Below are positions 7,698-51,624 of a stretch of 58,386 nt of DNA, piece after piece. A program made the translations under genes and the position numbers. Source of the DNA: a virus; IMG/VR virus record IMGVR_UViG_3300035698_022255, positions 1 to 58,386 of that record; one strand, given 5' to 3'. Under the pieces are notes generated by a model. It saw only the letters and a list, made by a program, of their open reading frames with translations. It ran no database searches and had not been told where the DNA came from. The number at the start of each line of letters is the position of its first letter. Within the stretch, counting starts at the first letter, position 1.

Positions 7698-8399
7698 TTA
7701 TTCCCTGAGGCCCTTCACCATCTTTTCCGTCTCCTTGGACATTCGTCCGCCAAGGTGATCCTTGAGCTTCTCAGCAGTGGCCGGGTCGTCCTTCTTCAAC
7801 TCGTCAATCAGGCCCACCATTTCCTGGAAGCCCCGCCGAGCTCGACGCCAGAGGAACGCAAGCACCGACGATCCACCCGCCCCCATTACAACCACTACCA
7901 CCAACCCCGCGACGAGTAGGAAGAATGCTGTGCGTAGGATGCCCGACGAGATTTTCCACCCCGTCTCGACGGGCGTGCTTCGGTGACTCTCATATTCCTC
8001 CCACCACTCCTCAGCCCTTTCCCGCTCCCTGCCAATGGTGCTGTGCATGATCTTGACCAGTCGATCCACCTCCTTCGACCGAACATCCCTGGCCACGGGC
8101 ATGGGGACGACTTCGGCAGGCTCACCCAACGGAGCACGAGCCGCGCTTATCGCATTCACCATCTGATCCACTTGTGGGTTACCCGATTCCGCCCCCTCAT
8201 AATAAGTCCTGCGAGCTTCCTCCTCGGACCACTGCAGGAGCGCCGCCTGCATCTCAGCGATTGACGGATCCTGGCGCAGCGGTGCCGGACTCGGCGGCGG
8301 CGCTTTCTTGCTGAAGCTGAACAGCGAACCGCAACCCATCATTGACATCACGAGTAGCGGCAATAGAATGCTCTCTACCAACCTTGTGTGTCTCATCAT
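7698..8399 (-). CDS. Lipoprotein with internal membrane segment, possible one-piece spanin
   Basis: 233 aa, AAGGAGG ribosome binding site before ATG-ATG. The N-terminus is a signal peptide ending in a lipobox-like SMMGC, then a Pro-rich linker. A helical, charged middle follows, then a strong membrane helix (TAFFLLVAGLVVVVVMGAGG) near residue 165 and a basic C-terminal tail. An outer-membrane lipid anchor plus an inner-membrane helix is the design of unimolecular spanins such as T1 gp11, although this protein is longer. It is the last gene of the late leftward operon. If correct it implies a host with an outer membrane. No endolysin is adjacent. Confidence 0.5.
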   Translation of the reverse strand: MMRHTRLVESILLPLLVMSMMGCGSLFSFSKKAPPPSPAPLRQDPSIAEMQAALLQWSEEEARRTYYEGAESGNPQVDQMVNAISAARAPLGEPAEVVPMPVARDVRSKEVDRLVKIMHSTIGRERERAEEWWEEYESHRSTPVETGWKISSGILRTAFFLLVAGLVVVVVMGAGGSSVLAFLWRRARRGFQEMVGLIDELKKDDPATAEKLKDHLGGRMSKETEKMVKGLRE

Positions 8400-8410
8400 C
8401 CCCAACCTCC

Positions 8411-9715
8411 TTAGATCAACTCGCCAGCCAGCACGGGAGCGTCCGGGACATTCGCATCTGGCGTGGCATTGTAGGTGTCCTCATTATCCGTCTCGTAACC
8501 ATCCGGCGAGGCCGCAGTGGCAATCCTTACGCCGAACAGGTATGCCTGCTCGTCTACAAGTGCCTCGCTCGTCCACGTCCACCAGTTCGCCCTTGTGGGG
8601 CTACTCATAGAAGCGGTAGCCTTCGGTGCGCTCCAGTCCACTGTCCCCGTTCCGTCATCCCAATACACCCGCCCCTCATACGCCGCACCGCCTCCGCCAC
8701 TTTCCTGAGTAGGATCGTAGTAAAAGCTTACCTTCACCTTCCCATCGGCCACAGCTTCTGCACGGACAATGCGGGGCTCCACAGGAAGGGCGGTAATGAG
8801 GACACCATCGCAACCTACAAAAACCTTCAGCATCTGCAGAATGTTCGCCTCCTCATTCCCGTCCGTGTCCACAGCCCTAAGGAGGAAAGTATGCGTGCCG
8901 GCTTGGCTCGGGGTGATCTCAAGTTGATAGGATTCTCCGGTGGGTTGTGCAAGAGGAGAATCATTATTGGGATCAATCGGAGCGTTACGCGAATGGTAGA
9001 GATTGTAGTGGTCAACATCAGCAGATTCGCTGGCGGTCCAGGAGAAGTCAAGCGTGACAGAGGTTGCGTAGCTGGCAGCTGCAGTGAGGGAACTCACCGC
9101 TGCGATGGTGCCGGAGGCCTCGACAATGACGCCGCCCCCCTGGAGGTCGAGGTCCTCGACCTGGAAATAGGTGGTATCGTTGTCGCCGTTGTTATCGCTG
9201 TTCGCAACATTGACATAGCGGAACGTGCGCCCCGCGTCAATGGTCACGCTCGCACTGCCCACCAGGTCCGTCCGCGCTTCATCGGTGTAAGCATAGCCCG
9301 TCACCGTGGCGCCGTTGCGGTCGAGCGTGAACCAGTACCAGGTGTTCAGCGCGCAGCCGACGAGCGTGTCGCTCTCGTTACCCTCGAAGTCCTCGAGAGT
9401 GACGTTGAACACCGACGTCTCGCGCGCCCGCAGGCCGACGGCCTCGCGGTCGTTGACGAGCCAGTCGCGCATGTCGTCGAGCGTGTTGGAGACGGCGACC
9501 AGCACGGCGAACGCGCCGCTGCCCGTGGTCTCCATGATGGCCTTGAACTTATAGGTGAAGTCGCCGATCGTCCCGGCGCCCTTGTCGTCGCCGTACCAGG
9601 CGTCCTCGTTCTCGGCCACACCGTTGACGTTGAGACGCAGGCCCCCGTTTTCCTCGTCGATGTGATTATTGGGGTCCGTCCGGCTGGACCAGGTGCTGAA
9701 GTTCTCGAGCGCCAC
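8411..9715 (-). CDS. Tail-tip/adhesin protein with lectin-like and fibronectin III-like domains
   Basis: 434 aa, GTG start directly after the stop of the next gene upstream. The first ~200 residues look like a jelly-roll (LamG/concanavalin-type) domain and align by eye with the 9716-10336 protein. Residues about 205-315 have a fibronectin III pattern (VTLDFSWTASESADVDHYNLY). A further beta-rich repeat ends the protein (VDEQAYLFGVRIAT). Position after the tape measure and tail-tip genes suggests surface binding to host polysaccharide. Receptor unknown. Confidence 0.55.
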   Translation of the reverse strand: MALENFSTWSSRTDPNNHIDEENGGLRLNVNGVAENEDAWYGDDKGAGTIGDFTYKFKAIMETTGSGAFAVLVAVSNTLDDMRDWLVNDREAVGLRARETSVFNVTLEDFEGNESDTLVGCALNTWYWFTLDRNGATVTGYAYTDEARTDLVGSASVTIDAGRTFRYVNVANSDNNGDNDTTYFQVEDLDLQGGGVIVEASGTIAAVSSLTAAASYATSVTLDFSWTASESADVDHYNLYHSRNAPIDPNNDSPLAQPTGESYQLEITPSQAGTHTFLLRAVDTDGNEEANILQMLKVFVGCDGVLITALPVEPRIVRAEAVADGKVKVSFYYDPTQESGGGGAAYEGRVYWDDGTGTVDWSAPKATASMSSPTRANWWTWTSEALVDEQAYLFGVRIATAASPDGYETDNEDTYNATPDANVPDAPVLAGELI

Positions 9716-31994: not shown

Positions 31995-32015
31995 TTCTAC
32001 GTCTCCTCCTTATGA

Positions 32016-32073
32016 TCGGCACGTCCTGGATGCGGAAGCCCCTCCGAGGTCGCGACCTTCCGGGACCCGGAGA
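32016..32073 (-). repeat. 58-bp leader repeat, copy 1 (inverse of 46350-46407)
   Basis: Exact 58-bp copy, in opposite genome orientation, of 46350-46407. Each copy is oriented the same way relative to the gene it precedes (portal here). It contains the palindrome AGGTCGCGACCT and can form nested stems, for instance CTCCG with CGGAG and CGGAAG with CTTCCG. It fills most of the 115-bp TerL-portal gap. Confidence 0.9.
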
Positions 32074-32109
32074 GCCCGAATGACCCGGCATCTTGGCCCA
32101 CATACGTAT

Positions 32110-33723
32110 TCATACGTTCTTCCTCCCGCCCGCGCCTACACGGGCACGCGTAGACCCGCCCAGGCCTCCCGCAACGAATCCGCCCAGGGTCAGCCGCGCA
32201 AACGCTCCGGAACTCGCGTCCACCTGATCCTTGTATCTCGACCGTGGGAAGAACCGTAACTCCCCTATGTAGTCCTGCGTCCAGGCGCGCTTTAGAACAT
32301 GGACATTCCCATCATTGACCTGTGTTGCATAAGGATCCGCGCGCTGCGCCTTGTCCCCCGTGGGACGATCTCGATAAGCCGTAAACCCCGCAAGGCTCCG
32401 AATGGTCGCCTGCGCGGACTCCTTCCCCCCACTTCCCGGCTCCTGTTCAACGCCTACCGTAACATTCACCCCATCCGCCTCCGCGGCCTGACGGATAAGA
32501 CGTTCCCGCTGTGCCGCCTCCCACTGCCCACGCACCACATCGAGAACCCAGTATTCTCCGCTCGCGCCCTTGCCCATTAGGACGCCTACCGTATACGCTC
32601 CCGCCTCATGCGTGCCTGCCTTGTCCCAGTAGCGCACAAGCCTCATAGTGCCCTTTCCTCGGACATCGTCCTCTAATACAATACGGTCCACCTTGAACAT
32701 TCCCCCACCCCTCGGAACGGGGTGCTGTAAATACTGTGCTGAGAATACCCAATCTCCTAATTCCGCCCGGGCCCCTTCAATGCATTGCATTGAAAGCCGA
32801 ATGGGATCCATAAGGCCCACCACCTCGTCCGGCTCCTCATCGTCCTGTGTAGGGTCCTGTGTAACAACATCCTCAGGAGTCTCAATAATCTCCTCGCCTG
32901 GGGCGCGGGAAGAGAGGGAATCCTCGGGGGGAGAAACGGGGATATAATACTCCCGGGCTGAATGAGGACGGACGCCTGGGGTGAGATAAGCAGGGAGACA
33001 TATATGCCGGACGGGGGAGGCATGAGGCTGTCGCGCCTTCTCCAGGAGGTGGCCGGTAGGATCGTCTTCTGCCAGACGCTGCATGATTAGGATAAGTGGG
33101 GTGGTGCGTCTATCAATCTTCCGGGTCATTAGCGTGTCGTCAATCCACTCATTGGTAGCGGTGAGGAATGCCTTGGAAACAGCGCCCCTTGGATTTATTG
33201 GATCGTCGATGATAAGGACGTGGCCATGGAAACCGGTAATAGCGCCACCGGTGGAAGTTGAGATCCTTTGACCGCCTGCGGAAGTAGTGAGGAGCCCCTT
33301 CTGCTCCTCATCGAGAACGACGTCTGGGAAAAGGGTCCGGAAGCGTTCGGAAGTTGCTATGCGCCGGGAAAGCGTTCCAAGATACAGGGAGAGGTGGGCA
33401 GCATACGATCCACAGATGGTGCGGATGGTGGGGTCTCGTGTCCACATCCAGACGGGAAACGCGACGGAACAGACGGTGGACTTTGTCGTGCCGGGGCTGA
33501 TGTTGATGATTAGGTCGTGGTCCTTGGGTTCCCGGGCAAGGACCTTTTCCGCGAGGCTCTGAAGTTCGGCGCAGAGATACTCAATGTGCCAGTTCCATAC
33601 AGGCTCCTCGGGGATGAATACGGGCCACATACGCTGGAGGAAATCGTAGAAGCTGTCCCGACACACCGAGGCCTCGAGATCGAGTTTGCTAATGCGGGTT
33701 CTTGTCGTGGCGCCACTACCCAT
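32110..33723 (-). CDS. terL: Terminase large subunit
   Basis: 537 aa from the ATG at 33723, which overlaps the TerS stop by 8 bp (ATGGGTAG) and has AAGGAG upstream; the frame is open 27 codons further. It cuts and pumps DNA into the prohead. The ATPase part has HDLIINISPGTTKSTVCS (Walker A-like), HVLIIDDPINPR (Walker B) and LILIMQRLAEDDPTG (motif III). The nuclease part has YWDKAGTHEAGAYTVGV and VLDVVRGQWEAAQRERLI, the RNase H-like metal-binding region. Its class does not reveal the end type. Confidence 0.85.
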   Translation of the reverse strand: MGSGATTRTRISKLDLEASVCRDSFYDFLQRMWPVFIPEEPVWNWHIEYLCAELQSLAEKVLAREPKDHDLIINISPGTTKSTVCSVAFPVWMWTRDPTIRTICGSYAAHLSLYLGTLSRRIATSERFRTLFPDVVLDEEQKGLLTTSAGGQRISTSTGGAITGFHGHVLIIDDPINPRGAVSKAFLTATNEWIDDTLMTRKIDRRTTPLILIMQRLAEDDPTGHLLEKARQPHASPVRHICLPAYLTPGVRPHSAREYYIPVSPPEDSLSSRAPGEEIIETPEDVVTQDPTQDDEEPDEVVGLMDPIRLSMQCIEGARAELGDWVFSAQYLQHPVPRGGGMFKVDRIVLEDDVRGKGTMRLVRYWDKAGTHEAGAYTVGVLMGKGASGEYWVLDVVRGQWEAAQRERLIRQAAEADGVNVTVGVEQEPGSGGKESAQATIRSLAGFTAYRDRPTGDKAQRADPYATQVNDGNVHVLKRAWTQDYIGELRFFPRSRYKDQVDASSGAFARLTLGGFVAGGLGGSTRARVGAGGRKNV

Positions 33724-34324
33724 CGGCCTGCGGGGTCTCCTTGGCATCGGTGGTAGGCGAGGGGAGGGAGGGGTCGGGATCAGCGAGCCGGAGAACATCG
33801 TCACTACCGTCCTGGGTTTCGATGGCGCGAAGCAAACGCCGCCTCATATCGAGGGGAAGGTTGAGACTGTCCACGGCTACGATGGATGCGATACGGATGG
33901 GGTTCTCGCCGCCCTCGATCTGGACCTTGTCGCCATAGCCGAGATGACGTGCCTTGCGCTCGAGATACCATCGGGCGTTCCGCGTTGCCTCGGCCATGTC
34001 GGCGCGGTTGGTGATGGCGTAGATGATGGTATCCTCGGCGAGGTCGATCACCTGGTCGCGCTCCTCCTCATACGCCTCCCGGATGTCGTCCCACCCCGGC
34101 CGGAGTAGAAGTTGCCGCACACACTCAGGGGTTGCGCCAAGGCGTCCTGCGATTCGACGCTTCACGCCCCCCGTCCCACGGAGGGCCCTGAGGAATCGAC
34201 GCTTGGAAACAGCATGGACATGGGGCTTGCGTTTGCGCTTGGCTTTGCGGCGGGGAGCGGTCGCTCTGTTCTTCGTCTTCTGTGCCCGGGCCATGCGGGC
34301 AAGGTCCTTGCGAGTCAACGCCAT
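33716..34324 (-). CDS. terS: Terminase small subunit-like protein
   Basis: 202 aa, GGGGAGGATCG upstream. A basic N-terminus (ARAQKTKNRATAPRRKAKRKRK) is followed by a helix-turn-helix-like region (GVKRRIAGRLGATPECVRQLLLRPGWDDIREAYEEER). Next comes the segment VIDLAEDTIIYAI...ARWYLERKARHLGYGDK, which is typical of small terminases. It would recognise the packaging site. First gene of the leftward late operon; a promoter lies 57 bp upstream. Confidence 0.75.
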   Translation of the reverse strand: MALTRKDLARMARAQKTKNRATAPRRKAKRKRKPHVHAVSKRRFLRALRGTGGVKRRIAGRLGATPECVRQLLLRPGWDDIREAYEEERDQVIDLAEDTIIYAITNRADMAEATRNARWYLERKARHLGYGDKVQIEGGENPIRIASIVAVDSLNLPLDMRRRLLRAIETQDGSDDVLRLADPDPSLPSPTTDAKETPQADG

Positions 34325-34380
34325 CCGATTCGATCCTCCCCATGTCGCGGGCTGCGTCCGTCACACGCCCGACACCCCAT

Positions 34381-34409
34381 ATATTACACGGACGCCGAAC
34401 GAGAGGCAA
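34381..34409 (-). promoter_or_regulatory. Sigma70-like promoter for the late operon
   Basis: On the minus strand TTGCCT (34409-34404) and TAATAT (34386-34381) are separated by exactly 17 bp. Transcription would start some 50 bp before terS and run through the whole virion block. Confidence 0.6.
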
Positions 34410-34570
34410 GACGAATCATCGGCGCCCTTGAGCGCCCTTGGGGAAAAACGCAGGGTGGAAATCACGCGAAAAGGGCCTTTTCCCAAAAGAAATCTTCTGG
34501 CATATTCCTGCAGGAGCCCGCTTCTACGGAGCAATCCGGAAGCTCCAGGACGATTCCGCCGAGATAAGCC

Positions 34571-34599
34571 TTGACAGGATTGGGATACCCAGGTATCAT
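34571..34599 (+). promoter_or_regulatory. Sigma70-like promoter into the structured region
   Basis: A perfect -35 (TTGACA, 34571-34576), 17-bp spacer and TATCAT (34594-34599). This is the best consensus promoter I found in the window. Transcription would begin near 34606, at the left border of the structured sequence, and continue towards the early genes from 35036. Confidence 0.75.
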
Positions 34600-35000
34600 G
34601 TGCTACGTAGGTTTGACATCACGTTGGGCTTGGATGGATCGGCGATCAGGTCGGCAGTTTGATCGGCCCTGACAAGACCCAGCCACAAAGCGTCCCTCGA
34701 GGGGGACGGGTGAAAAGGTAGCCAGGCGCGGTAGGTGAGGAGCCGAAAGCCAGGCGAAGTCGAGCGGTGATGTCGCCCGACACCTAAACGACTACCCCAA
34801 AGGATAAGCGAGGGTGAGCGAGTAAGGGCGTAGATGCGCCTGGAGGCCGCGAGGCGGGCCGAGCATTGACCAGCGGAAGCGAGGTCAATAAGCAACCGTC
34901 AGTAGCCCCAACGTCTTAGGGGGGGAAGAACGAGGAAGCCGAAACGGGCCGCGCGTTGAGCGGCTCGTCGTGGCGGTGTGGTAACCGTCACCTGATGAGG
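34600..35000 (+). ncRNA. Candidate structured non-coding RNA (about 400 nt)
   Basis: Downstream of a consensus promoter and without a credible ORF. Several perfect stems can be drawn. GTCCC/GGGAC (34692-34696 with 34703-34707) is a local hairpin. GGTAG/CTACC (34717-34721 with 34792-34796) encloses GGTG/CACC (34734-34737 with 34781-34784), which encloses GGCGA/TCGCC (34753-34757 with 34773-34777). ATTGACC/GGTCAAT (34865-34871 with 34883-34889) is capped by a GC-GGAA-GC stem-loop. GNRA-like loops and purine-rich joints (CCGAAAGCC, GGTGAAAAGG) resemble large folded phage RNAs. I cannot assign it to a known class. It may instead be a long 5' leader of the 35036 gene. Confidence 0.5.
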
Positions 35001-35035
35001 CAGCCACCTCGGAGACGTTGGAAGGAGACGGGACG

Positions 35036-35779
35036 ATGTCAATCCGCATCAGAGAAGACGGGATGATCGAGGTCGTGGTCGTAGTGACGCACGTAGACGC
35101 AACGCAGGATGGCTTCTCGTCCACACAGGCGCACTACATTCTGACGGAGGAGGACGGCGGCGGCGTTGTCAAGGGGGAATCCCTTGACCGCGCAGAGAGG
35201 GCGCTGCTGGAAAACATCATCCGTCCGGCCTTGTGCCCGGGTCGTCGCGGGGCGTCACCCAACAAGGACGTATTCGTCCAGCACGACCTGACCATGCTGG
35301 ACGAGGCGACGCGGAGCGAGCTGATCAACATCGCGCACATGGAAGCCCAGCAGGAGGAGACGAGCAGGAAGCAGACAGGAGCGCAACGCGACGCGCCCAT
35401 AGAAGGCAGCGAAGGACCCGGCCTGCTGCCCACCGGGAGCGAGCCGATGGGAAGTGGAGACGGGTGGGTCGCACGCGAGGCCCTGAGCGTGCGGCTGCAC
35501 TCCGGCGTCTGTTACACGATTAGCCGCGCGGGGGAGATGCGCATTACCCCCCACGGCGAGCTAACGGAACCCTCATATGCCCGCGAGGCTGAGATGTGCG
35601 CCGTCCACAATGCGCTGTGCGCGGCGGCGCCGAAGGCGGGCGATGGCCCAATCTCGGGTCTCATGCCAGCTGATGATGCGGGGGCGCTGGTCCAAGCGAC
35701 GATGGTCTCCCGGTACGGGACCGACTGGATCGCCTGGCAAGCGGCCCAGAGAGTGCGGACGAGCCTCGCGGATGGTTGA
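35036..35779 (+). CDS. Hypothetical early protein
   Basis: 247 aa, AAGGAGACGGGACG before the ATG. N-terminus beta-rich and very Val-rich (MIEVVVVVTHVDAT), then an acidic helical middle (LTMLDEATRSELINIAHMEAQQEET) and a C-terminal alpha/beta part. No family recognised. First gene after the structured region, so likely among the first expressed; host-takeover functions are plausible but not shown. Confidence 0.6.
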   Translation: MSIRIREDGMIEVVVVVTHVDATQDGFSSTQAHYILTEEDGGGVVKGESLDRAERALLENIIRPALCPGRRGASPNKDVFVQHDLTMLDEATRSELINIAHMEAQQEETSRKQTGAQRDAPIEGSEGPGLLPTGSEPMGSGDGWVAREALSVRLHSGVCYTISRAGEMRITPHGELTEPSYAREAEMCAVHNALCAAAPKAGDGPISGLMPADDAGALVQATMVSRYGTDWIAWQAAQRVRTSLADG

Positions 35780-35818
35780 CCAACACACCCGGGCAAGAGC
35801 CCTTGAAAAGGAGACGCG

Positions 35819-36157
35819 ATGAGGACCGGAAAGAACACGCAGACCGAAGCGCAACACAAGGGAGATAGAAGAATGAGGACGAGGCGCATAGACGTAGAAG
35901 GCCCGAACGGCGAGGCGACGATCACCCGCGACGGGATGATGATCGAGATCGCCGGATCGAAGCTGCTGAAGGCGATTGAGACCAAGGGCGGCAAGACGGC
36001 CGTGGTGAAGGTAACCTTCACCCGCCGCACGAGCGCGATGAGGCAGGAGCAGATCGAAAAGGCCGCGCGAGACCTCCAGGAAGCCCTGGACGGCTTCCGC
36101 GGCTGCGCGGGCGACGTAGCGAGCTACCGGATGGCAATCGAACTCTTCGCAGACTGA
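35819..36157 (+). CDS. Hypothetical early protein
   Basis: 112 aa, AAAAGGAGACGCG upstream. The first 14 residues (MRTGKNTQTEAQHK) are nearly the same as those of the 36203 protein, and the DNA there is a near-identical copy of about 43 bp. A second start at 35873 has its own GGGAG. The main body (RRIDVEGPNGEATITRDGMMIEIAG...AARDLQEALDGF) is a beta-hairpin plus helix. Function unknown. Confidence 0.6.
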   Translation: MRTGKNTQTEAQHKGDRRMRTRRIDVEGPNGEATITRDGMMIEIAGSKLLKAIETKGGKTAVVKVTFTRRTSAMRQEQIEKAARDLQEALDGFRGCAGDVASYRMAIELFAD

Positions 36158-36202
36158 TCCTGCTTCGCACGAGGCTACGCAGGACAAAGGAAGGACCACG
36201 CA

Positions 36203-36523
36203 ATGAGGACGAGAAAGAACACGCAGACCGAAGCGCAACGCAAGGCAAAGGAAGCTTACACGCGCGCCCAGCGCGACATCGCCGGACTCCTCGACAACCT
36301 GCGCACCGAGGCCAAAGAGCACGCGCGGCTGGTCTACGCGAAGGAAGACGGCTGCCCGAGCTGGGAAGACTACGGCAACATCGCACATACCCGAGAGCTG
36401 CTGACCCACGCGCTGGCATTCTTGGGGGGCTGTTGGTGGAACGAGGCGGACATCGACGCCACAATGGAGGGCGCGAAGAATCTGAAGATGGAGGGTGCTG
36501 GTGAAGATCAAAGTAGTCGTTGA
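36203..36523 (+). CDS. Hypothetical early protein sharing its N-terminus with the preceding gene
   Basis: 106 aa. Begins MRTRKNTQTEAQRK and continues as a helical, Trp-containing protein (IAGLLDNLRTEAKEHARLVYAKEDGCPSWEDYG). The duplicated 5' segment shared with 35819 suggests copying of a translation-start region. The 36158-36202 gap has an imperfect CCTGC/GCAGG stem. Function unknown. Confidence 0.6.
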   Translation: MRTRKNTQTEAQRKAKEAYTRAQRDIAGLLDNLRTEAKEHARLVYAKEDGCPSWEDYGNIAHTRELLTHALAFLGGCWWNEADIDATMEGAKNLKMEGAGEDQSSR

Positions 36524-36710
36524 CGTAGACCCCCGCGCCCGGCGCGGCTTGGTAATTGAAGGCTGGTCAGTCGGCCAAAAGAACAAACTTGCCTCCCGTG
36601 AGGATATGCGGAATCATATCATCACAACCATAGAAATAGAACTCGGCGACCTCGAGCACAGAGCGCATTGCGAGGCCGAGGGTGTGAAGCCACATAAGTT
36701 CGGCGAATGA
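36501..36710 (+). CDS. Small hypothetical protein
   Basis: 69 aa, GTG start with GGAGG six bases upstream; another GTG two codons earlier is possible. Overlaps the end of the previous gene. Pattern KIKVVVDVDPRARRGLVIEGWSVGQKNKLASREDMRNHIIT is beta-rich then helical. The His/Cys C-terminus (HRAHCEAEGVKPHKFGE) might bind metal. Unknown function. Confidence 0.55.
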   Translation: MKIKVVVDVDPRARRGLVIEGWSVGQKNKLASREDMRNHIITTIEIELGDLEHRAHCEAEGVKPHKFGE

Positions 36711-36749
36711 TGCCGCCCCGAACAACACAGAAGACATGGAGGGTTGACC

Positions 36750-37064
36750 ATGGCTGCGCAAAAGCAGATCTCAACGAGCAATCCTTACGTCGGAGAAGTC
36801 CTGGCCCGCCACTTCGGCTCGGACGCAATGGTCTACTGCTCGGTCGAGGAGGTCGAGCCAAGAGGATCGTTGGAGACGGAGGAGTCACGAGAGGCGGAGG
36901 CAGCAGGCCTGGTCGTGCTCGGCTCGCTGACCGTCAATGCCTTCTCCTGCAACCGCGCACGATTCCTGGTCATCGAGAAGGCCAGGTGCCCGGTAAGCGA
37001 GGACGAGTGCGCGATGGCGACGCGGTGCCGCCGGCGGGGAACCCACTGCATCCTGAAAGGATAA
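36750..37064 (+). CDS. Hypothetical protein with C-terminal cysteines
   Basis: 104 aa from the ATG at 36750 (ATGGAGGGTTGACC). The C-terminal part CNRARFLVIEKARCPVSEDECAMATRCRRRGTHC has five Cys and one His that could form a metal site. N-terminal half alpha/beta. No family recognised. It directly precedes the MoxR/CobS-like gene and may be co-expressed with it. Confidence 0.55.
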   Translation: MAAQKQISTSNPYVGEVLARHFGSDAMVYCSVEEVEPRGSLETEESREAEAAGLVVLGSLTVNAFSCNRARFLVIEKARCPVSEDECAMATRCRRRGTHCILKG

Positions 37065-37072
37065 AACAGCAT

Positions 37073-38062
37073 ATGAAAGCAAACGAACTGAAAGCGCTGC
37101 TGAGGAGAACGATTCCCGCTGGGCTGCCTATCCTCATCAAAGGAGCGCCCGGCATCGGCAAGAGCGACATCGTTGCTCAAGCCGCGGGGAGGGTCGGAGC
37201 GGACCTCGTCGTCAGCCACCCCGTCGTGAGCGACCCGACGGACTACAAAGGATTGCCCGCTATCGTAGGCGGGCAGGCCGAGTTCCTCCCATTCGGGGGC
37301 CTGCGGGCGCTCATGGGGGCCTGTGTTCCCACCGTCGCCTTCTTGGACGACTTGGGGCAGGCGCCGGCCGTGGTGCAGGCCGCTGCCATGCAACTCATCC
37401 TGGGGCGACGAATCAACGGACACGCCATTAGCAGCATGGTAACGTTTGTCGCCGCCACCAATCGCCGGGAGGACCGGGCAGGCGTAACCGGAATCCTCGA
37501 GCCCGTCAAAAGCAGGTTTGCCACCATCGTCGAGCTCAATGTTGACGTGGACGCGTGGTGTCAATGGGCCGCCGAGAATGACGTGCCAGTCGAGGTAATC
37601 GCATTCATCCGGTTCCGCCCGGAACTGCTCATGGACACCTCTCGTCCCACCAACGACATCGTCAACCGCCCCAGCCCTCGGACGGTCACGTATGCGGGGA
37701 AGCTATTCTCCTTGGGCCTCGAAGATCCCGAGAGCTTCGGTGGCGCATGTGGCGAGGGATGGGCAGCGGAGTTCCTGGGGTTCGTCCGTATGTGGCGACA
37801 ACTACCGAGCATCGACGGCATCCTGGTCAATCCAGGTAGCGCCGAGGTGCCCTCGGACCCCGCGGCACTGTTCGCCGTGAGCACCGCGCTGGCCGAGAGG
37901 GCATGCGCAAAATCAGGCAGCCGTATCATGCAGTACCTCGCGCGGCTCCCCGAAGAGTTCGCTGTCCTGTGCATCCGCGACGCCATCCGACGGGATCCCG
38001 GCTTTGCCCGGTGTAAGCGATTCATCTCCTGGGCCGCCGAGAACAGCGAGATGTTGAGCTAA
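37073..38062 (+). CDS. MoxR/CobS-like AAA+ ATPase
   Basis: 329 aa from the ATG at 37073 (aaaggataaaacagcat upstream). GAPGIGKS is Walker A at about residue 23, TVAFLDDLGQAP Walker B, and TFVAATNRRED the sensor 1 region with an arginine after it. The MKANELKALLRRTIPAGLPILI opening is typical of MoxR proteins. These AAA+ chaperones work with VWA-domain partners; such a partner is encoded two genes on (38964). What they remodel during infection is unknown. Confidence 0.75.
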   Translation: MKANELKALLRRTIPAGLPILIKGAPGIGKSDIVAQAAGRVGADLVVSHPVVSDPTDYKGLPAIVGGQAEFLPFGGLRALMGACVPTVAFLDDLGQAPAVVQAAAMQLILGRRINGHAISSMVTFVAATNRREDRAGVTGILEPVKSRFATIVELNVDVDAWCQWAAENDVPVEVIAFIRFRPELLMDTSRPTNDIVNRPSPRTVTYAGKLFSLGLEDPESFGGACGEGWAAEFLGFVRMWRQLPSIDGILVNPGSAEVPSDPAALFAVSTALAERACAKSGSRIMQYLARLPEEFAVLCIRDAIRRDPGFARCKRFISWAAENSEMLS

Positions 38063-46327: not shown

Positions 46328-46349
46328 CATGCACGAGACGTGCCGGGGT

Positions 46350-46407
46350 TCTCCGGGTCCCGGAAGGTCGCGACCTCGGAGGGGCTTCCGCATCCAGGAC
46401 GTGCCGA
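46350..46407 (+). repeat. 58-bp leader repeat, copy 2 (inverse of 32016-32073)
   Basis: Identical for 58 bases to the element before the portal gene. It lies in the 161-bp gap after the helicase and before the small zinc-protein gene, oriented with rightward transcription. Its flanks also share GTGCCGGG-like sequence with copy 1, so the homology may be longer but diverged. Confidence 0.9.
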
Positions 46408-46460
46408 GGTTTAGGCGGGGTGAAATCGCAGTTAGAACGGCAAGGCCCGTTGGCGGGGCT

Positions 46461-48691: not shown

Positions 48692-49486
48692 ATGCCTGCG
48701 AGCAAGAAGTCGGCAGCGGACAGAAAGATGGTCACGAGCATTCTGGAGGCGCTGGGTGTCGAGGCCAACGGCCGCACCGCAACGCCCAAACTCAAAGCAA
48801 GGCTCGAAGCGAAGATTAAGGACCCTGACTGGGACAAGGTGGATGCCGTTCTCAAAGATCTGAGTTGTGCCCAGCTCGACTGGCTGGAAGCGGAAGACAT
48901 GATCGACAGTGCCGACGAGGACGAGGACGAGGATGAGGACGAGGTTTTGGACGGATGCCTGAGTGAAGAGTGTGAGGTTTTGGACGAGGATGAGGATGAG
49001 GATGAGGTTTTGGACGAGGATGAGGTTTTGGACGAGGATGAGGATGAGGATGAGGTTTTGGACGAGGACGAGGATGAGGATGAGGTTTTGGACGAGGATG
49101 AGGATGAGGATGAGGTTTTGGACGAGGACGAGGATGAGGACCCGAAGGCCAAGGCCAAGCCGAAGGCAGCGCCGGAGGCCAAGCCGGAGGCCAAGCCGAA
49201 GGCCAAGGCCAAGCCGGAGGCCAAGGCGAAGCCGGGCGAGCGCAGGAAGTGGAAGGGCGAGAAGAGCCTCGCAACCGTCTTCCAGGAGGTGGTCCTGCGC
49301 GGAACGTTTCCCCTGAAACGCGCCGTGCTCATGGCACGTCTCGAGAAGGCGCGCGGGGACCGCGGCTGCGCGAACACGATGCAGACCTACCTCAACTGGG
49401 CCTGCCGCACGGACGAGAAGAATCGTTGCTCCTTCCTGCTCGTCAAGGACGGCAAGAAGTTGGACAGGGTAGCGAGAAAGAGCTGA
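48692..49486 (+). CDS. Charge-block protein: DE repeats, KPA repeats, C-terminal domain
   Basis: 264 aa from the ATG at 48692 (AGGCGGAAGG). Residues 1-75 are a small helical domain (MVTSILEALGVEANGRTATPKLKARLEAKI...). Residues about 78-150 are acidic repeats of the type VLDEDEDEDE. The next ~30 residues are Lys/Pro/Ala-rich. The last ~80 residues form a globular basic domain (SLATVFQEVVLRGTFPLKRAVLMARLEKARG...). The acidic and KPA segments are nearly the same at DNA level as those of the SSB gene (57944-58386). May tether something to DNA or to the replisome. No known family. Confidence 0.6.
   Translation: MPASKKSAADRKMVTSILEALGVEANGRTATPKLKARLEAKIKDPDWDKVDAVLKDLSCAQLDWLEAEDMIDSADEDEDEDEDEVLDGCLSEECEVLDEDEDEDEVLDEDEVLDEDEDEDEVLDEDEDEDEVLDEDEDEDEVLDEDEDEDPKAKAKPKAAPEAKPEAKPKAKAKPEAKAKPGERRKWKGEKSLATVFQEVVLRGTFPLKRAVLMARLEKARGDRGCANTMQTYLNWACRTDEKNRCSFLLVKDGKKLDRVARKS
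49021..49140 (+). repeat. Tandem 60-bp repeat encoding acidic VLDEDEDEDE units
   Basis: 49021-49080 and 49081-49140 are identical 60-mers, each made of two diverged 30-bp units; shorter related units precede them from about 48974. Recent tandem duplication, likely variable in copy number. Confidence 0.85.
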
Positions 49487-50527: not shown

Positions 50528-50644
50528 ATGAATGACACGTCCACACACACAGGCGGGGCTCGTTGTGACGGGTATGGGTCAGATGCGGGCCTTACAGAGA
50601 CCTCATGGCACGTGCTGAAGCGGGGAGGACAGACATGGCCGTGA
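50528..50644 (+). CDS. Possible small ORF overlapping dpdA start
   Basis: 38 codons (MNDTSTHTGGARCDGYG...), ending TGGCCGTGA across the dpdA start. It could couple translation of dpdA to upstream ribosomes. The upstream Shine-Dalgarno is poor. No similarity recognised. Confidence 0.3.
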   Translation: MNDTSTHTGGARCDGYGSDAGLTETSWHVLKRGGQTWP

Positions 50645-51624
50645 AGATTTTCTTTGACTGCGGCGCGCCCGCCCTTTTCAATCGCCTCAGCCGGAAGATC
50701 GCGAGCACTGCCAGCATGAAGAACAAGCTTGGGGTGCATGTCACACGTAGCCACACGAGCGACTTCTCCTACGTGCATACGCCGGAGTATCGTGAGTATC
50801 GGGAAGCCTACGCTAAGTTCCTGCTTCGCTACCGACGATGCTTCGAGACCTACGCAAGCCTGGACGTGATGGGGAGCGCGGAGTTGACTTACGAGAATCA
50901 AAAATACCTCGAGGGCTATGGACTGAAGCCCCTGCCGGTGTGGCATTACGGCACGGACATTGGGTGGCTTGTCCGATACCTTGACGAGGGCTACGACTAC
51001 CTATGTATCGGGGGGCTTGTGCCGAACCCTGTCCCAGTTCTCAAGCTCCCGCTCGACCGTATCTGGGCACGCTACCTAACGGACAGTAGTGGAATGCCCG
51101 TCGTCAAGGTCCACGGTTTTGCTGTAGGCTCCTTTCAGCTCATGTATCGCTACCCATGGTATAGCGTCGATGCCAAGACGTGGCTCGACCAGGCCCGATT
51201 CGGCGCTATCCTCATGCCTCGGCCCGTGACAAAAGACAAGTACGACTGGCTCCATCCATACCTAACATCCATGACCGCGCGCACCATCCGCCCAGCACCC
51301 CCTCACCGACACATTCGCACCATGGGGATTGCACAGCGGCAAGCAGTGCTCCTGTTTCTTGAACGTATTGGGGTGCCATTGGGGAAGAGCCGCTTCGAAC
51401 CCCGACCAATGGACTACGAGTTGCAGGGGGATGAGCATTGGGTTACAAGGCCTACCGAGGACAAGGCGGGCCTTCTGGAAATCTGTGAGGAGCGCGGGGT
51501 CGTGAATTACCAAGCGGCTCGCCTGGACGTAAATCTTCTTGTCTACCACAAGATTGAAGAGATAGTTCCAAAGTGGCCGTGGCCCTTTGAGTTTCAACCA
51601 CCCGAGAAGGGGCTCTTTACATGA
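50635..51624 (+). CDS. dpdA: DpdA-like DNA 7-deazaguanine transglycosylase
   Basis: 329 aa from the ATG at 50635 (GGGGAGGACAGAC). Distant relative of tRNA-guanine transglycosylase that exchanges guanine in DNA for a 7-deazaguanine base. Seen: VKIFFDCGAPALFN (position of the first active-site Asp in DSG-type sequences), YASLDVMGSAELTYENQKYLEGYGLKPLPVWHYGTD, YLCIGGLVPNP, and KVHGFAVGSFQLMYRYPWYSVDAKTW (second catalytic Asp region), which is typical of phage DpdA. Encoded with folE, queD and queE, giving strong contextual support. Confidence 0.85.
   Translation: MAVKIFFDCGAPALFNRLSRKIASTASMKNKLGVHVTRSHTSDFSYVHTPEYREYREAYAKFLLRYRRCFETYASLDVMGSAELTYENQKYLEGYGLKPLPVWHYGTDIGWLVRYLDEGYDYLCIGGLVPNPVPVLKLPLDRIWARYLTDSSGMPVVKVHGFAVGSFQLMYRYPWYSVDAKTWLDQARFGAILMPRPVTKDKYDWLHPYLTSMTARTIRPAPPHRHIRTMGIAQRQAVLLFLERIGVPLGKSRFEPRPMDYELQGDEHWVTRPTEDKAGLLEICEERGVVNYQAARLDVNLLVYHKIEEIVPKWPWPFEFQPPEKGLFT

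Follow-up and report, generated by a model that had tools for sequence, protein, structure and literature searches.

A predicted type II hammerhead ribozyme in the 5′ leader of a phage early operon

The late/early junction of a tailed-phage contig

The window, by which we mean the whole 58,386-nt stretch analysed here, is a tailed-phage contig from an IMG/VR record. Its late genes (portal, terminase, capsid, tape measure) run leftward, and an early operon encoding an AAA ATPase, a DUF3150-like protein, an HNH protein, a methyltransferase, a helicase, a primase, DnaB and a polymerase runs rightward. The two blocks diverge at 34.3-35.0 kb, where 711 bp of noncoding sequence (34325-35035), a gap of the length given in an earlier note on this DNA, separate a leftward TerS-like ORF (33716-34324) from the rightward start codon at 35036. 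This ATG, with an AAGGAG ribosome-binding site upstream (35022-35027), is the best start of the first early ORF, which has 247 codons (35022-35779 on the + strand, ribosome-binding site included) and whose product had no relatives in the collections searched. Farther into the operon, the AAA (MoxR-like) ATPase gene (36707-38062, + strand) is followed by the DUF3150-like and HNH genes.

A sigma-70-type promoter, TTGACA-N17-TATCAT, lies within the gap (34571-34599, + strand), with its TTGACA at 34571-34576, a 17-bp spacer and its TATCAT at 34594-34599; the predicted +1 is near 34605. Matching the consensus at 11 of 12 positions, it is the sole promoter-like site in the region, where 0.2 would be expected, and one of just two sites with at least 11 of 12 matches within 58 kb on both strands. 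The promoter named in the earlier note thus stands, as does the statement that no plausible ORF follows it: all three forward frames of the leader contain stops.

Other features of the contig lie outside the gap. Two early ORFs are 92% identical to each other over 48 nt spanning their start codons (35814-35861 and 36198-36245), apparently a duplicated gene start, and a queuine tRNA-ribosyltransferase-like gene at 50605-51624 possibly has a role in DNA base modification. One 73-nt sequence, matching at 98% over 62 nt, occurs in opposite orientations at 32005-32077 (- strand) and 46346-46418 (+ strand), both copies being intergenic, one in the terminase/portal interval and the other after the DnaB-like gene; the terminase-side copy had no Rfam match, and fold energy was unremarkable in both. 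A low-complexity repeat (AAGCCGGAGGCCAAGGCC...) is found at 48922-49291 and at both contig ends (1-99 and 57913-58384), an arrangement suggesting a break of the assembly within the repeat and a genome that could be almost complete or circularly permuted.

A type II hammerhead before the first early gene

The earlier note had proposed a possibly novel structured RNA behind the promoter, with many nested stems in about 400 nt, and had been unable to match it to a known family. The Rfam search that it suggested did return a match: Hammerhead_II (RF02276) at 34937-35009 on the + strand, with 52.5 bits against a gathering cut-off of 37, 15 bits above it, and an E value of 5.5e-8 across the whole window. 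No other Rfam family was matched even at E <= 5, in the whole window or in the region, the ROOL and GOLLD models included. A structured RNA is present, but its identifiable part belongs to a known family. The gap RNA combines another member of a known ribozyme class, in a phage setting that has already been reported, with an uncharacterised leader.

Fold energies divide the gap in the same way. As a whole, 34600-35040 has a fold energy of -179.6 kcal/mol (z -2.3, with 1 of 100 shuffles as good), mainly because of its 3′ part: the ribozyme domain (34907-35022) reaches z -3.43, compared with -1.94 for the upstream leader (34606-34906), or -1.79 in a second estimate with 4 of 100 shuffles as good. 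Of the proposed run of stems, then, the ribozyme domain held up against shuffled sequence, whereas the leader stayed near the chance range. The interval given for the structure, 34600-35000, also clips the 3′ end of its well-supported portion, as the ribozyme extends to 35009 and a helix enclosing it to 35021.

The predicted ribozyme has an open stem II of 3 bp (GCC/GGC, 34938-34940/34999-35001), a loop-closed stem III of 9 bp (34944-34952/34960-34968) and a loop-closed stem I of 8 bp (34970-34977/34984-34991). Its catalytic core is complete, with CUGAUGA at 34992-34998, GAAA at 34941-34944 and UC at 34968-34969 at the cleavage site, corresponding to the CUGANGA, GAA(A) and UH of the class; the predicted cut falls between C34969 and G34970. 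For an independent search we used a custom pairing descriptor covering all three hammerhead permutations instead of a covariance model, because MAFFT misaligned stem III. The descriptor recovered the hammerhead in the window and gave no matches in 1.67 Mb of shuffled control sequence. With family match, descriptor and fold in agreement, the only strongly supported RNA structure in the gap is a predicted canonical type II hammerhead.

Loop I contains a strand, GUGGU (34978-34982, + strand), that can pair with GCCAC (35003-35007) in the 3′ tail. Across 48 distinct type II hammerheads from the fetched loci, the matched loop I/tail pairing scored 10.36, compared with 8.75 +/- 0.31 after re-pairing, and none of 500 re-pairings reached it; since related sequences are not independent, this figure is to be read as support and not as a probability. 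The loop I/3′-tail pseudoknot predicted for the window is a feature of most type II members, backed by pairing across the family. Full core, circular permutation, open 3-bp stem II, hairpin stems I and III, a loop I pseudoknot with an AGCC tail and an intergenic phage location all agree with the type II hammerhead as described (RF02276; Perreault et al. 2011, PMC3088659). The window copy differs from typical members in two respects that leave its class unchanged: it has a 10-bp helix beyond stem II, and it is a single copy after a long promoter-proximal leader.

This additional helix, which includes one G-U pair, encloses the ribozyme (34908-34917 with 35012-35021, + strand) and is found both by sequence and by folding. 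It exceeds expectation from shuffled flanks (p = 0.005) and is the strongest among 49 hammerheads tested, a set in which such a helix is not common to the other type II copies. Its 3′ arm adjoins the ribosome-binding site, and the end of stem II lies 34 nt 5′ of the first early start codon.

The inverted repeats of the gap might instead act as DNA, in a replication origin, a packaging site or a divergent late/early operator, and their place at a divergent junction beside the terminase genes, at the cumulative GC skew minimum, speaks for such an element. We consider this improbable: a switch of coding strand alone predicts the change in skew, no repeat reaching 35 nt was found at the junction, and the strongest stems are accounted for by the ribozyme.

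Hammerheads in related phages

Among 49 phage records related to the window by ATPase or terminase, 4 carry type II hammerheads, all scoring below the Rfam cut-off, and the operon of ATPase, DUF3150-like and HNH genes bears hammerheads in several related phages. One record (L003) has two, both downstream of the terminase/early junction; each directly follows a small reading frame, and the next start codon comes ~34 nt later. In another (L047), the locus has three, two before the DUF3150-like gene and the third between the DUF3150-like and ATPase genes, with four in the whole record (G034). A third (L092) has one in the divergent junction itself, with the first early ORF beginning 32 nt farther on, and two in the record. 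Several hammerheads in these three records lie 32-43 nt before a start codon, like that of the window, which fits a shared pattern, judged from gene positions, of a hammerhead shortly before an early-operon start codon. Two further records (L129, L130) were found by the hammerhead pattern alone and have distant ATPase operons downstream. The hammerhead closest to the window's by DNA, in L114, was set aside as a counterpart, being an intercistronic copy without a leader. In the literature searched, we found no published link between DUF3150 genes and ribozymes.

This arrangement resembles that of prophages and phages with clusters of intercistronic hammerheads (Perreault et al. 2011, Figure 3), in which ribozymes stand before or between phage genes, as they do in L003 and L047; the window differs in having one only, at the 5′ end of the operon. 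The same positions bear on whether the hammerhead is an inactive relic or a chance motif in an ordinary untranslated leader. The copy is present in one genome only, since the near-identical contig L002 stops before the ribozyme, and this leaves some room for such a reading. We nevertheless regard it as highly improbable, given that all core positions are intact, three stems and the pseudoknot can form, the Rfam score is 15 bits above the cut-off, shuffled sequence yields no descriptor match and relatives have hammerheads at the same position.

Separately, five phage contigs (L112, L120, L121, L135 and L118) each carry five to seven hammerheads along one strand, a rich set for the study of ribozyme-based mRNA processing.

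Proposed processing of the early transcript, and the upstream leader

Our preferred explanation, which we hold to be very probable, is that a type II hammerhead in the 5′ untranslated region of the early operon cuts the leader off the early mRNA. Transcription from the 34571-34599 promoter would produce a leader of ~365 nt, and the ribozyme would fold co-transcriptionally, its loop I/3′-tail pseudoknot setting the active geometry. Self-cleavage between C34969 and G34970 would then release a leader with a 2′,3′-cyclic phosphate end and leave an early mRNA whose 5′-OH end leads directly into the stem I hairpin and lies 66 nt before the ATG. As for the hammerheads that sit before or between cistrons in related phages, the likely gain is processing of early mRNA and probably its protection from 5′-end-dependent decay. 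Ends with a 5′-OH and a hairpin are expected to resist such decay. Cleavage in this RNA, the ends produced and the effect on the mRNA are what we infer from the motif and its position.

Pseudoknotted type II hammerheads have been shown to self-cleave, and clusters of them in prophages have been proposed to process phage mRNA (PMC3088659). Counting against this explanation, a stem II one pair longer lowered activity in one construct (PMC3088659), and the 10-bp enclosing helix could hold both cleavage products together. Most ATPase or terminase relatives, moreover, have no hammerhead, and the L003 and L047 copies lack the pseudoknot tail. A ribozyme at the 5′ end of an early operon, matched in relatives by copies that separate cistrons of this operon, offers a concrete test case for the hypothesis that phage hammerheads process mRNA.

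The untranslated leader upstream of the ribozyme (34605-34906, + strand) is weakly structured, with z values of -1.8 to -1.9. Among 56 random coding segments of 301 nt, taken from the sense strand, 5 (9%) reach z -1.79, and the antisense strand of the leader (z -1.77) is comparable to the sense strand. With values so near the controls, most of its stems are close to expectation for GC-rich sequence of such length. No homologue was found in Rfam (E <= 5), in the phage collection (blastn of the gap) or in the 49 related records. Nor did one appear in relatives traced through the ATPase, TerL, the TerS-like ORF or the first early ORF among viral contigs, or through TerL among genomes; the near-identical L002 ends at 34699. 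A failed homologue search is no proof that the leader lacks a function, and the leader is the only candidate for something new in the gap, weak as the support for it is.

Noncoding leaders occur at the same divergent junction in L003, L047, L055 and L006, which suggests that a leader is usual at the late/early junction of related phages. Those of L003 and L047 are 250-300 nt long, 84% alike over 119 nt and share a conserved hairpin; alignment of the L003, L047 and L055 leaders to that of the window did not exceed chance. One motif common to the window and L006, GGTG..CACCTAAAYGACT, looked promising (1 of 300 shuffles) and was rejected: unrelated coding stretches score 46-55 against its 39, its single further exact match is in the unrelated L145, and the L006 leader has no match in relatives at 64-67% TerL identity.

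Could the leader, of 300-365 nt, nonetheless have a function of its own as a noncoding RNA, either in trans once it is released or as a leader that serves antitermination or regulation, with the hammerhead as its 3′-end processing device? Its own strong promoter, the lack of an ORF, a mild surplus of fold stability and the leaders at the same junction in L003 and L047 (shared hairpin) and L055 (T-arm-like hairpin) speak for this; the equally stable coding segments and antisense strand, the missing homologues and relatives' leaders that do not align above chance speak against it, and we consider it possible if unlikely. Like GOLLD, ROOL and other large ornate phage RNAs, it would be a noncoding phage RNA of several hundred nucleotides (PMC12286853); unlike them, it matches none of their models and has no covariation support. 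If the leader is functional, it would be an RNA freed by a ribozyme and not by a terminator or nuclease. Slightly more doubtful is the fuller version, in which a dedicated noncoding RNA of ~365 nt takes its 5′ end from its own promoter and its 3′ end from the hammerhead, one transcript giving rise to an RNA that acts in trans as well as to processed early mRNA, and the L003/L047, L006 and L055 leaders being unrelated functional counterparts.

As an observation in its own right, the noncoding L055 leader (7957-8426, - strand), in which ARAGORN identified no tRNA or tmRNA and Rfam gave no match, ends in a T-arm-like hairpin held in an acceptor-like stem (GCCCTTG..GGTTCGACTCC..CAAGGGC).
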